Assembly (NCBI RefSeq): GCF_030161595.1
Contig: NZ_BSUM01000001.1
Span: 3,596,001 to 3,660,000, forward strand
DNA: 64,000 nucleotides
Reading direction: 5' to 3'
Origin: Litorihabitans aurantiacus
Lineage (GTDB): Bacteria; Actinomycetota; Actinomycetes; Actinomycetales; Beutenbergiaceae
Shown here: one piece after another, positions 58,782 to 63,229 of the stretch
How the letters are laid out: each line of letters starts with the position of its first letter
Position numbering within the stretch: position 1 is the first letter of the stretch
Program-made: the position numbers and the translations under genes
Notes under the pieces: generated by a model
What the model was told of the DNA's origin: nothing
Databases searched by the model: none
Seen by the model: the letters and a program-made list of their open reading frames with translations, nothing else

Positions 58782-58986
58782 GCCGCCAGCCTAGTTCGGC
58801 GGGGCCGTCGGGCGGGTCGGCGGGTGGCCGCACTCACATGCGCCTGCACATAGCGTGCAGTTAGGAATGTTCATTCCACCCTTGTATGTGTTCTTACTCA
58901 CGTTTAGCGTGAAGGAGCGGTCCGGACCGTTCGGGCTGCGTGTGCGTGACGGACTGATCAGTTCAACGAGGCCAGGAGCCGAGACG
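58782..58986. other. Divergent promoter region of lpdA and surface gene
   Basis: Gene-free 205 nt. Visible are a CTGCAC/GTGCAG hairpin, a GGAATG/CATTCC-type short palindrome, a CGGTCCGGACCG 12-bp palindrome at about 58918-58929, and a TTGTAT-type -35-like word (about 58880-58885). The palindrome lies some 60 nt before the surface-gene start and could be an operator. Nothing more definite can be said. Confidence 0.3.
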
Positions 58987-60295
58987 ATGACGACGCCGGA
59001 GCAGCAGCGGGTGCAGCGGGGATCCTCCGCGCGCCGCTGGCTCCTGCGCGGTCTGCTCGCCGGCGCCGGCGCGGCGGGGCTCTCGGCCTCGGTGCCGCGG
59101 GTGCGTCGGCGCTCGACCTGCTGGGCGGCGACGGTGCCGTGAGCGGGATCGTGTCCGAGGTGGGCGACCGTGTCGTCGCTCCCGTGGTGGACGGGGTGGT
59201 CGACGGTGTCGTGACCCCCGTCGTGGACGAGGTGGTTGCGCCGGCGGTCGAGACCGCGGTGGTGCCGGTGGTCGAGCCCGTGGCGCAGGACGTCGCAGCG
59301 CCGGTGGCGCAGGATCTCGCCGCACCCGTGGTCGAGGCGGCTGCCCTTCCGGTGGTGGACGACGTGGTCGCCCCCTCGTGGAGGAGGTCGCAGCACCGGT
59401 GGTCGACGACGTCGTCGCCCCCGTGCTGGACGAGGTGGCAGCTCCCGCGATCGAGGAGGTCGTGGCTCCCGTCGTCGACGGGGTCGTGGCGCCGGTGGTC
59501 GAGGAGGTCGCGGCTCCGGTGGTCGACGGCGTGGTCGCGCCGGTGGTGGACGAGGTCGTGACCCCCGTGGTCGACGACGTGGTCGCCCCCGTCGTCGAGC
59601 AGGTCGCGGACGGCGTCGTGACACCGGTCGTCGCTGCGATCGAGCCGGTTCTCACCCCCGTGGTCGACGCGGTCGAGCCGGTCCTGACCCCGGTGGTCGA
59701 GGGTGTCGGTGGCGTGGTCGACCCCGTGCTCGAGCCGCTCGTGCCCGCGCTGCCGGGTGGGCTCGAGGAGGAGGTCGCGCCCGTCGTGCCGGTGCCCGCT
59801 CCCGGCCTCCCCGGGATGCCCGGGACGCCCGCCGACTCCGGCGCACCGCTGCCCGCGCCTGTGCTCCCCTCCATCCCGGCGCAGCCGGACGCCGGCCAGG
59901 TGGCGCTCGCGGACGCCGGCGCCGCGTCGACGGCCGGCGACGCCTCGTCGTCGCGCGACTCCGCCACCGCGCCGCGTACCGCGATCTCGACGCCGGTCGC
60001 CGCGCCGTCGGGCCCCGGGGGTGTCGAAGCACTTCCGCAGGCGTCCACCGCCACGCAGGACGGCGGAAGCGGTGCCGACGAGCGCGAAGGCAGCCCCTGG
60101 GGTGGTGCCGCCACGGTCGCCGTGATCGGTGGTGCGGCCACCGCCGTCGGCTCCGCGGGACCGACCCTGCTGCGCGAGGCGGCCCCGGCCGGCGGCGTCG
60201 CCCTCTCCGCCCTTCTTCTCGTGGGCGTGGCCCGGCGTCACCAGGACGCGCTGCCGCCCGCCCCCGCCCTGCGCATCCCCGTCTCTCCCGCCTGA
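58987..60295 (+). pseudogene. Octapeptide-repeat membrane-anchored surface protein, two frameshifts
   Basis: Three frame segments join to a protein of about 436 residues. It has an ATG with AGGAG site, then 'SSARRWLLRGLLAGAGAAGLSA' (secretion signal), a region 'GLGAAGASALDLLGG', then some 20 repeats of eight residues on the pattern '[AT]P-V-V-[DE]-x-V-[VA]' (roughly residues 45-215). A Pro/Ala-rich stalk and a C-terminal hydrophobic anchor (GGVALSALLLVGVARR) follow, without LPXTG. The breaks are at 59076-59090 and at a CCCCC run 59371-59375; one extra base each restores the frame. It precedes the chaplin-like gene. Confidence 0.72.
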
Positions 60296-60375: not shown

Positions 60376-62529
60376 ATGCACGTAGTCATGCGTCGAGCAC
60401 TGCAGACGGTGCTCGTGTCAGGCGGCCTGGTGGCCGCAGCTGCGGGGGCGGCTCACGCCTCCGACGGGTTGCTGGGAGACGTCGGGATCGACGTCCCGGT
60501 GACCGTTCCGGTGGAGGTCAGCGACGTCGCCGTCGGCCTCCTCGGTGACGCCGCCGTGGTGTCGCCGCCGGCGGCCCCGGCCGAGGCCCCGCCCCAGGCG
60601 CCGGTCGGCGGCGGTGGTGAGGTCGAGCGTCCGGTGGAGGCGCCGCAGGCGGCGGTCGAGGGCGACGGGCTCGCCGGGGACGTCTCGGTCGAGGCGCCCG
60701 TGACCGTCCCCGTCGACGTCGAGTCGATCGCGGTCGGGGACGCGACGGTCGTCTCGCACGAGGAGCCCGCGGCTCCGGCGCCGGCAGCTCCCGCCGAGGC
60801 GGCTCCGGCCGCTGTGGCGGAGGAGTCGTCGCACTCGGACGACGGTCTGGTCGGTGACGTCTCGGTGGTGGCGCCGGTGACGGTGCCGGTGGAGGTGTCC
60901 GACGTGGCCGCGGGTGTCCTGGGTGATGCCGCGGTGGTCTCGCACGAGACTCCGGCTGCTGCTCCGGCTGCCCCGGTCGAGGCGGCTCCTGTCGCTGTGG
61001 CGGAGGACTCGTCGCACTCGGACGACGGTCTGGTCGGTGACGTCTCGGTGGTGGCGCCGGTGACGGTGCCGGTGGAGGTGTCCGACGTCGCAGCAGGTGT
61101 CCTGGGTGACGCTGCGGTGGTCTCGAACGAGACGCCCGCGGCTGCCTCGGCCGCTCCGGTGGCAGTGGCGCCGTTGGGCTCGGGCTCGGGCTCGGACTCG
61201 GACTCGGACGACGGTCTGATCGGTGATGTCTCGGTGGTGGCGCCGGTGACGGTGCCCGTGGAGGTGTCCGACGTCGCTGCTGGTGTCCTGGGTGACGCCG
61301 CGGTGGTGTCCAACGAGTCGCCCGCTGCTCCGGCCGCTCCGGTGGCGGCTGCGCCGTCGTCGTCGGGCTCGGGCTCGGACGACGGCCTCGTCGGTGACAT
61401 CTCGGTGGTGGCGCCGGTGACGGCGCCCGTGGACGTGTCCGACATCGCCGCAGGTGTCCTGGGTGACGCTGCGGTGGTCTCGAACGAGACCTCGGCTGCT
61501 GCTCCCGCGGCTCCGGTGGCGGCTGCGCCGTCGTCGTCGGGCTCGGGCTCGGACGACGGCCTCGTCGGTGACATCTCGGTGGTGGCGCCGGTGACGGCGC
61601 CCGTGGACGTGTCCGACATCGCCGCAGGTGTCCTGGGTGACGCCGCGGTGGTGTCCAACGAGTCGCCCGCTGCTCCGGCCGATCCGGTGGCGGCTGCGCC
61701 GTCGTCGTCGGGCTCGGGCTCGGACGACGGCCTCATCGGTGACATCTCGGTGCTGGCACCGGTCACGGTGCCCGTCGACGTGAGCTGCATCGCCGCCGGA
61801 GTCCTCGGCGACGCCGCGGTTGACTGCACCACGACGCCCGCGCAGCCGGTCGACACCACCCCGGGCGCCGAGGCTCCCGGCGGCGGTACGGGCGGTGGCG
61901 GTCTCATCGGCGACATCGGGATCGAGCTGCCGGTGACCGTCCCTGTCGACGTCGGCTGCATCGCGGTCGGTCTCCTGGGTGACGCCACGGCCGAGTGCAC
62001 GACGGCCGCCGTCGACCCGGTGGACCCGGTGGACCCGGTGGACCCGACCGACCCGGTGGACCCGACCGACCCGGTCGACCCGGTTGACCCGACGGATCCG
62101 ACGGACCCGGTCGACCCGACGGACCCGGTCGACCCGACGGACCCGGTGGACCCGGTTGACCCGACGGACCCGGTCGACCCGACGGACCCGGTCGACTCGA
62201 CGGACCCGGTCGACCCGACCGACCCGACCGACCCGACGGACCCGACGGACCCGACCACGCCCGTCACCCCGGTGACGCCGGTGACCCCGGTGACGCCGAT
62301 CGACGTCACGACCCCGGGGACCACCCCCGGCGGCTTCATCAGTGACGACGGCCGCGTGATCACCGCGACCGGCACCACCGGTGCCGGCACGACCATGCAG
62401 GTCGCGAGCCAGCAGTCCTCCCTCCCGACCACGGGCGTCACTCCGTTCGCGGCCGGGATCGCAGGGCTCCTGCTCCTCCTGGGGGCGGCTGCGCTGCGGT
62501 ACTCGCGTCGGTCGACCTCGGCGGTGTGA
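60376..62529 (+). CDS. LPXTG surface protein with nine chaplin-like repeats
   Basis: 717 residues. It has a signal peptide (about 1-28, ending AHA|SD), nine ~34-residue repeats of 'DGL[LVI]GD[VI]xVxxPVTVPV[ED]VSxxAxGVLGDAxVxx' at about 30-63, 97-127, 156-189, 217-250, 279-312, 336-369, 393-427, 451-484 and 509-541, a [12 protein letters not shown] spacer of about 75 residues (546-620), a TPVTPV segment, and a sortase signal LPTTG with hydrophobic helix and basic tail at the C-terminus. The last two repeats keep a Cys pair (C471/C484, C528/C541), as in Streptomyces chaplins. It is wall-anchored and likely forms a hydrophobic coat. GGAGAAGG site at the ATG. Confidence 0.88.
60826..61760. repeat. 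Near-identical ~180-nt DNA repeats in the chaplin-like gene
   Basis: Blocks beginning 'GACGACGGTCTGGTCGGTGACGTCTC' or close variants start near 60840, 61021, 61207, 61379, 61553 and 61724, with spacings of about 170-185 nt. Two of them (about 61379-61552 and 61553-61723) are almost identical. They invite recombination and copy-number change, and also assembly collapse. Confidence 0.75.
62007..62263. repeat. Asp-Pro-Val/Thr codon repeat
   Basis: GACCCG-GTG/ACG/ACC triads run for about 250 nt and encode the stalk (DPV)(DPT). Many copies differ only at third positions, so selection keeps the peptide while the DNA drifts. Length polymorphism between strains is expected. Confidence 0.8.
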
Positions 62530-62672: not shown

Positions 62673-62769
62673 CCATCGGCGGGACCATCCAGAGCAGCTG
62701 AGAGACCTGGCTCGACGACGCTGCAGCAACCCCCGTCACGGGTGCGGGTGCTACCGCCAGGCCCGATGG
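62673..62769 (+). ncRNA. SAM riboswitch (S-box family)
   Basis: A 97-nt leader with closing helix CCATCGG/CCGATGG (62673-62679 with 62763-62769), the S-box core CTGAGAGACCTGGCTCG, then GACGACGCTGCAGCAACC and a GGTGCTACCGCCAGGC 3' part. These are the conserved blocks of S-adenosylmethionine riboswitches of actinobacterial methionine genes. It precedes the rhodanese-metZ pair, so high SAM would lower their expression. The helix overlaps the ribosome site (GGAGG at 62768), suggesting translational control. Confidence 0.93.
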
Positions 62770-62779
62770 AGGAGTGAGC

Positions 62780-63229
62780 ATGACCGATTCCGCATCGTCC
62801 GACTGTCGTCACGACGGCGGCACCCACGGCTACGCGGGCGATCTCACGCCCGCCGAGGCGTGGGAGGCGCTGGAGCAGGACGGCGAGGCCGTCCTCGTCG
62901 ACGTCCGCACCCCCCAGGAGTGGCAGCACACCGGGGTGCCGGACCTGACGTCGCTCCACCGTGACGCCGTCCTCGACCCGCTGCAGACGTTCCAGGGGCC
63001 GAACCCGGACTTCCTCGAGGCGCTGACGCGCGCCGGTCTCACCCCCGGCGACAACCGGACCGTCCTGTTCGTGTGCAAGTCGGGCGGTCGTTCGATCGCC
63101 GCGGCCCAGCTCGCGACGTCGGCCGGGTTCGGCCCGGCGTACAACGTGCTCGAGGGCGTCGAGGGTCACGCCGGCCCCGGCTGGGCGGGTCAGGGCCTGC
63201 CGCTGCGCGCGTGGGAGGGCGAGCGATGA
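62780..63229 (+). CDS. Rhodanese-domain protein under SAM riboswitch control
   Basis: 149 residues from ATG 62780 with GGAGG at good distance. The rhodanese core is clear: 'EAVLVDVRTPQEWQHTGVPD' and the active-site loop Cys in LFVCKSGGRSIAAAQLA, then 'GPAYNVLEGVEGHAG'. It may deliver sulfane sulfur. It is directly coupled to metZ (ATGA overlap) behind a SAM riboswitch, so a role in the direct sulfhydrylation branch of methionine synthesis is likely. Confidence 0.92.
   Translation: MTDSASSDCRHDGGTHGYAGDLTPAEAWEALEQDGEAVLVDVRTPQEWQHTGVPDLTSLHRDAVLDPLQTFQGPNPDFLEALTRAGLTPGDNRTVLFVCKSGGRSIAAAQLATSAGFGPAYNVLEGVEGHAGPGWAGQGLPLRAWEGER

Follow-up and report, generated by a model that had tools for sequence, protein, structure and literature searches.

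A predicted sortase-anchored, nine-repeat relative of the long chaplins and a conserved partner gene directly upstream

Chaplins form the coat that lets the hyphae of Streptomyces rise into the air. The long chaplins ChpA, ChpB and ChpC combine a signal peptide with two or more hydrophobic beta repeats built on a V-P-V-x-V-P-V core, a Pro-rich stalk and a sortase signal, and a class E sortase is encoded in the genome. The protein described here, encoded in a 64,000-nucleotide stretch of DNA (the window, meaning the whole of the stretch that was analysed), shares all of these features and the same domain order. It departs from the long chaplins in having nine repeats of about 33 residues where they have two domains, GD where they have GN, and a C-x12-C pair in its last two repeats only; in addition, searches of its own genome found no short chaplin, and searches of three Streptomyces-like genomes found no counterpart of the gene directly upstream of it. 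Units without Cys are known among chaplins as well, since ChpE and the second domain of ChpB lack Cys just as repeats 1-7 of the window protein do. The Cys-less domain of ChpB is C-terminal, however, whereas in the window protein it is the Cys-bearing repeats that are C-terminal, beside the stalk.

Two further systems come close. CwpA and CwpB of Actinoplanes missouriensis are hydrophobic proteins of the wall that depend on a class E sortase and are proposed to act as long chaplins do, and according to the accessible part of the report their authors find no chaplin domains in them (PMC13251363), whereas the family of the window protein does possess one by intermediate search. Nearer to the window organism, the available text of a review records, as a BLAST hit, a chaplin-like gene in Arthrobacter chlorophenolicus, a non-sporulating rod-coccus of the same order, and describes no repeats, anchor or partner for it (PMC4255298). 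This gene is the sole trace in Micrococcales that we found in the literature consulted, which lay mostly outside subscription journals and contained no multi-repeat chaplin-like proteins of Micrococcales, leaving their absence in print unproven. A chaplin-like gene had been noticed before in the order (PMC4255298).

Architecture of the repeat gene and its surroundings

The preliminary description had read the gene as encoding a multi-repeat protein with nine repeats, an Asp-Pro stalk and an LPTTG anchor for sortase, and at the level of sequence this architecture is borne out by the open reading frame, a repeat HMM and Tandem Repeats Finder (Table 1). The repeats start at residues 31, 98, 157, 218, 280, 337, 395, 452 and 509 and are separated by Ala/Pro/Ser-rich linkers; the Asp-Pro run begins at residue 546, and LPTTG occupies residues 683-687. 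The nine domains found by the repeat HMM attest to self-consistency only, the HMM having been made from the same repeats, and the array is independently supported because Tandem Repeats Finder picks it up in the DNA (periods 171 and 345, scores 1226 and 1335). The signal peptide and the sorting signal that characterize long chaplins are both present by eye. Scanning the window protein directly against Pfam and NCBIfam yielded no useful family, and a search of a plasmid collection gave no match to it.

Table 1. Features of the repeat gene and the upstream partner gene, in window coordinates
Feature	Coordinates	Strand	Remarks
Partner: Val/Pro-rich secreted protein, end RIPVSPA	58987..60295	+	three frames in assembly
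Sortase-anchored nine-repeat chaplin-related protein (predicted)	60376..62529	+	ATG to TGA ORF, 717 aa
Signal peptide, residues 1-28	60376..60459	+	cleavage site by eye; N-terminus of relatives similar
Repeat 1, without Cys	60466..60564	+	
Repeat 2, without Cys, 3 residues shorter	60667..60756	+	
Repeat 3, without Cys	60844..60942	+	
Repeat 4, without Cys	61027..61125	+	
Repeat 5, without Cys	61213..61311	+	
Repeat 6, without Cys	61384..61482	+	
Repeat 7, without Cys	61558..61656	+	
Repeat 8, Cys pair C-x12-C	61729..61827	+	
Repeat 9, Cys pair C-x12-C	61900..61998	+	
Stalk: Asp-Pro (DPV/DPT), then TPV	62011..62298	+	
LPTTG sorting motif	62422..62436	+	
Sorting signal: hydrophobic segment and basic tail (RR)	62437..62526	+	NF041528 match below cut-off

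The composition of the protein is both acidic and hydrophobic. Residues 29-680 contain 106 Asp and Glu residues and two Lys and Arg residues, with 4-7 net acidic charges per 33-residue repeat stretch, and mean hydropathy is 1.2-1.4 in eight of the nine repeats, compared with 0.7-0.8 in two chaplin stretches. Comparison of eight repeat units within the gene gave a mean pN of 0.152 and a mean pS of 0.366, and for five repeat units compared with the relative in Serinibacter arcticus dN/dS was about 0.31, 0.76, 0.81, 0.47 and 0.47. These values suggest that the repeat unit is under constraint, and unevenly so.

A candidate sortase for the predicted anchoring is encoded elsewhere in the genome. Six sortase matches were obtained, and the three frames scanned comprise one class E and two class C enzymes, the class E sortase lying at C1:3174596 (247.5 bits, where the cut-off is 160). 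Most relatives of the window protein bear LPxTG or LAxTG signals, the latter being the kind of signal that class E sortases use.

One sequence stretch, at least 36.5 kb long, occurs twice in the same contig, near its start and at its end (C1:35480-72000 and about C1:3635155-3671677, that is, window 39155-64000 and beyond), with 0 mismatches and 10 gaps, and it includes a second copy of the repeat gene at C1:56697. Because the copies differ by gaps but no mismatches, they are probably one sequence assembled twice, the alternative being a recent real duplication. A simple overlap of the contig ends, of about 73 kb, was rejected, as the first 20 kb of the contig do not match the window. Unrelated to the repeat gene, a SAM riboswitch (RF00162, 50.8 bits) at window positions 62682-62772 precedes a rhodanese-like ORF (62774-63229) and an ORF for a putative PLP-dependent sulfhydrylase, both recognized by eye.

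Relationship to the chaplin domain

The likeness to chaplins asserted by the preliminary description fails in the direct HMM search against chaplin profiles that it had proposed as a check. With the E-value limit set at 10, where HMMER filters discard most weak matches, the Pfam family ChpA-C (PF03777) gave no hit to the window protein. A further HMM was built from 25 chaplin domains of three Streptomyces-like genomes, which belong to one genus, measure 7.9-9.7 Mb and contain 6-11 ChpA-C matches apiece. Over the full sequence of the window protein it scored -2.3 bits, with a best domain of 12.4 bits compared with 7.2 bits for the best of 430 controls. The direct profile test of the window protein for chaplin homology is negative or marginal.

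Profile-to-profile alignment and a one-step intermediate search, on the other hand, support the homology. Alignment with hhalign of 72 distinct repeats from the window protein and its relatives against the 25 chaplin domains gave a probability of 87.75, an E value of 3.4e-6 and a score of 27.37, and none of 400 column permutations was as good (highest permuted score 21.49). Nine of ten relatives tested, which we chose from the 23 loci listed, pass the ChpA-C cut-off of 21 bits, the lowest score being 24.2 (Cellulomonas sp. B6) and the highest 136.5 (Microbacterium sp. Leaf320). They include a relative from Occultella gossypii, in the window organism's own family (36.8 bits); the tenth, from Serinibacter arcticus in the same genus as the window organism, gave no ChpA-C match. 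Once 32 domains from five Pfam-positive relatives were added to the chaplin HMM, the window protein scored 143 bits (E 3.8e-43, Z=4000), its best domain reaching 28.6 bits compared with 8.4 for the best of 402 controls, and further addition of Occultella raised the score to 229.5 bits. Judged by these profile comparisons, the window repeats are homologous to the chaplin domain through intermediates only, and the predicted gene product is a relative of the sortase-anchored long chaplins (ChpA-C type) that has diverged and expanded; it is not a canonical chaplin.

The divergence is visible at the defining positions of the domain. In the accessible part of its description, the chaplin domain is defined by three GN motifs (PMC13251363); in the window repeats the first and last of these sites read GD, and the middle one has other residues. 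GN is present in some repeats of a second genome of the same genus (G005) and in relatives from Microbacterium, Arthrobacter and Actinomadura, and the repeats of Actinomadura meyerae have the form nearest to the classic chaplin domain (GGNQVFAPVTVPLSVCGNSLAIVGLSQAQC). The two Cys are spaced by x12 in the window protein, by x13 in Actinomadura and by x17 in the chaplin compared, so that the second half of the window repeat is shorter than that of the chaplin. In the window organism's own genome (95.28% complete), the ChpA-C profile had 0 matches, no other repeat protein of this type was found beyond the second assembled copy of the same gene, and searches with both the ChpA-C and the repeat profiles found no short chaplin, so the window protein has no short chaplin to partner it.

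Relatives are scattered across the order. A repeat profile search of 297 genomes found matches in 40, spread over 16 of 95 genera, and at least 23 named loci come from Serinibacter, Occultella, Actinotalea, Cellulomonas, Oerskovia, Cellulosimicrobium, Microbacterium, Arthrobacter, Actinomadura and one Sporosarcina record. Several of the genera that bear relatives are unicellular, and the lineage of the window protein, its genus being that of Serinibacter arcticus, is likely non-filamentous. Repeats, stalk and anchor are kept in most relatives, with a stalk that varies, by eye, between DP, GDP, GTDP and TP. The record of Sporosarcina beigongshangi (L076) has a repeat protein and a partner much like those of Arthrobacter sp. 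HY1533 (L078), and its name or assembly may be wrong. In the same-genus genome G005 (L002/L049), a frame change inside the Asp-Pro stalk of the repeat gene removes the anchor, and the partner match is split over two separate open frames, through either sequence error or real loss.

As the preliminary description had observed, Cys pairs are confined to the last two repeats: all four Cys of the window protein lie in repeats 8 and 9, two in each. Across 13 open frames, the G108 protein among them, the 77 distinct repeats divide into 24 with both Cys and 53 without any, and 0 have a single one; a disulfide would require such a both-or-neither pattern. In 13 of 13 proteins that mix the two kinds of repeat, the last repeat, adjacent to the stalk, bears the Cys pair. 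This count is of 13 hand-entered patterns; it omits L084, in which one Cys falls within the domain boundary, the Occultella aeris gene, which is incomplete, and proteins without Cys repeats. Its chance under independent placement, about 2e-7, overstates the case, as the proteins are kin. The relatives examined from Microbacterium, Arthrobacter and Cellulomonas, which fall outside the 13-protein count, have repeats without Cys, so a Cys base cannot be generally required.

The further proposal that loss of Cys marks a change from disulfide-closed to stacked units, within a long fibre, is not established. Only two of the nine window repeats have the pair, and chaplins themselves include Cys-less domains, among them the second domain of ChpB, as given in the accessible part of its description (PMC13251363). 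ChpE forms fibrils without Cys, and reduced chaplins also still form them, according to the portion available of that study (PMC3079736). Cys-poor repeats are therefore no obstacle to amyloid-like assembly, and because Cys-less chaplin domains are already known, the absence of Cys alone marks no new mode of assembly.

A conserved gene directly upstream

The less expected part of the finding is a conserved partner gene, which was absent from the first reading of the window. Its sequence in the window is broken into the ORFs 58855-59142, 59139-59561 and 59378-60295. The second assembled copy of the gene differs in one single-base run, and since the copies differ there, at least part of the frame breaks is likely sequence error. 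Under a rule that asked for an end within 500 bases and at least 11% V and 10% P in the last 350 residues, a partner lies directly 5' of the repeat gene, on the same strand, in 21 of the 23 named loci among the matches listed. The distance from its end to the start of the repeat-gene match is 76-431 bases (21 loci); the two loci without a partner are L082, whose upstream DNA amounts to only 265 bases, and the locus of Actinomadura. All 21 partners end in (S/T)P(A/G/D), compared with 3 of the 966 remaining frames of these loci, a count that is descriptive, the tail having been known before the partner rule was written.

A partner profile matched 37 of the 297 genomes of the order. Partner and repeats occur together in 24 genomes against 5 expected, where the genomes are related and adjacency was checked in part; at the threshold applied, the partner profile has no match in 16 of the 40 genomes with repeats, and the repeat profile none in 13 of the 37 genomes with a partner. 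A further partner-like match lies elsewhere in genomes G008, G010 and G013. The profile found no match in the three Streptomyces-like genomes or in the repeat-bearing genome G108, and Pfam and NCBIfam searches with five members, then with four, gave no family above the cut-off. For these two reasons, the absence of a family match and absence from those genomes, we rejected the candidate identities of rodlin and short chaplin for the partner.

Three of the 13 partner-only genomes were inspected, and in each the next gene encodes a protein whose signal peptide is similar and whose ectodomain is acidic and repetitive, with a stalk and an LPxTG motif. These proteins (L109 2171-4096, L111 2699-4690 and L110 2176-3504) are sortase-anchored, have acidic repeats of the GEDGVVDDVLGADEP type or the GLLGDEQ type and stand directly after the partner gene, in the position of the chaplin repeats; in the L110 protein one Cys pair is retained, close to the stalk. 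Given that partner-only loci still carry an anchored acidic repeat gene, the constant arrangement may be a partner plus a sortase-anchored repeat protein, of which the chaplin repeats may represent one state.

Predicted structure, proposed role and alternatives

AlphaFold2 prediction of the window protein, from an alignment of 14 sequences, gave a mean pLDDT of 64.6 and a pTM of 0.64, with strands in all nine repeats. Ten-residue blocks in repeats 2-8 mostly have pLDDT 79-87, falling off towards the ends of repeats 2 and 8; in repeats 1 and 9 confidence is lower throughout. Each predicted repeat shows the same register, namely GD, a short strand, xP, two residues, xP, a long strand, GD and a strand. 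A long chaplin of a Streptomyces-like genome, predicted with low confidence from 17 sequences (pLDDT 48.2, pTM 0.27), agrees with this register through the two prolines. From the pTM of the window model we infer that the repeats would stack side by side. The repeats of CsgA and FapC likewise stack as beta layers, and the likeness of these functional amyloids to the window repeats is by analogy only: a Foldseek search of the PDB with the predicted model returned 14 rows, none significant, with CsgA at the top (E 1.3) and FapC thirteenth (E 9.3). Many of the other rows are proteins that we take to be beta-helical, and the repeat profile had no match among the sequences of solved structures in the PDB.

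By analogy with chaplins, we lean, with no great confidence, towards the repeat protein forming a wall-anchored, hydrophobic, amyloid-like attachment coat. Sortase would join the stalk to the wall, and the stalk would carry the repeats through it. The beta-rich repeats, with soluble Ala/Pro/Ser linkers between them, would pack against one another, both in a single chain and across different chains, into a hydrophobic, amyloid-like layer at the surface for attachment, as chaplin biology would suggest. The two wall-proximal Cys-paired repeats might be locked by disulfides as a base or nucleus, and the Val/Pro-rich partner might be made alongside the repeat protein and help or join its assembly, two steps without precedent. 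The partner would in that case stand in for the short chaplins and rodlins with which the long chaplins of Streptomyces work. Several points weigh against this reading: the 4-7 net acidic charges per repeat would oppose close packing unless they were neutralized, dN/dS relative to S. arcticus is about 0.8 in two of the five units, Foldseek gave no significant solved structure, and the genome searches found no short chaplin.

We consider it possible, if doubtful, that the protein is instead a chaplin-derived adhesin or spacer that does not assemble, its repeats forming a beta stack within one chain for surface display or ligand binding, with no amyloid. Consistent with such a protein, the pTM of 0.64 comes from a single-chain model, the repeats are strongly acidic and Cys-poor, the genome lacks short chaplins, and acidic-repeat genes stand 3' of the partner in three genomes without a repeat-profile match; the hydrophobic repeat core, which exceeds the chaplin stretches in hydropathy in eight of nine repeats (1.2-1.4 against 0.7-0.8), argues against it. 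A passive wall-spanning or S-layer-like spacer, in which the anionic Asp-Pro stalk would do the work, perhaps by binding cations, and the repeats would be filler, is improbable. It would account for the 106 acidic and two basic residues of the mature region and for the repetitive stalk visible, by eye, in most relatives, but the stalk sequence varies freely among relatives while the repeat cores are kept, and pN/pS is about 0.4 among the repeat cores of the window gene. That an unrelated V/P-rich beta repeat resembles chaplins by composition only, as the lack of a direct Pfam match and the short, low-complexity repeats would allow, is very unlikely and already disfavoured, since 0 of 400 column permutations reach the real score, graded relatives cross the ChpA-C cut-off within the same family and the best control domain reaches 8.4 bits against 28.6.

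We tentatively suggest that unicellular Micrococcales may possess an undescribed two-gene surface system, in which a wall-anchored chain of stacked chaplin repeats and a co-secreted, co-assembling or processing Val/Pro-rich partner would serve attachment and not aerial growth, and that the chaplins of filamentous actinomycetes may be one branch of an older family. In its available text, a review raises the possibility that attachment preceded the aerial role and notes chaplin-like hits in organisms for which aerial growth is not known (PMC4255298). The multi-repeat relatives described here, predicted to be wall-anchored, make up a distinct branch that occurs in 40 of 297 genomes of one order, and they come with a partner for which Pfam and NCBIfam gave no family above cut-off in the members tested. 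If these organisms are unicellular, chaplin function before aerial growth would be directly testable in simple rods.
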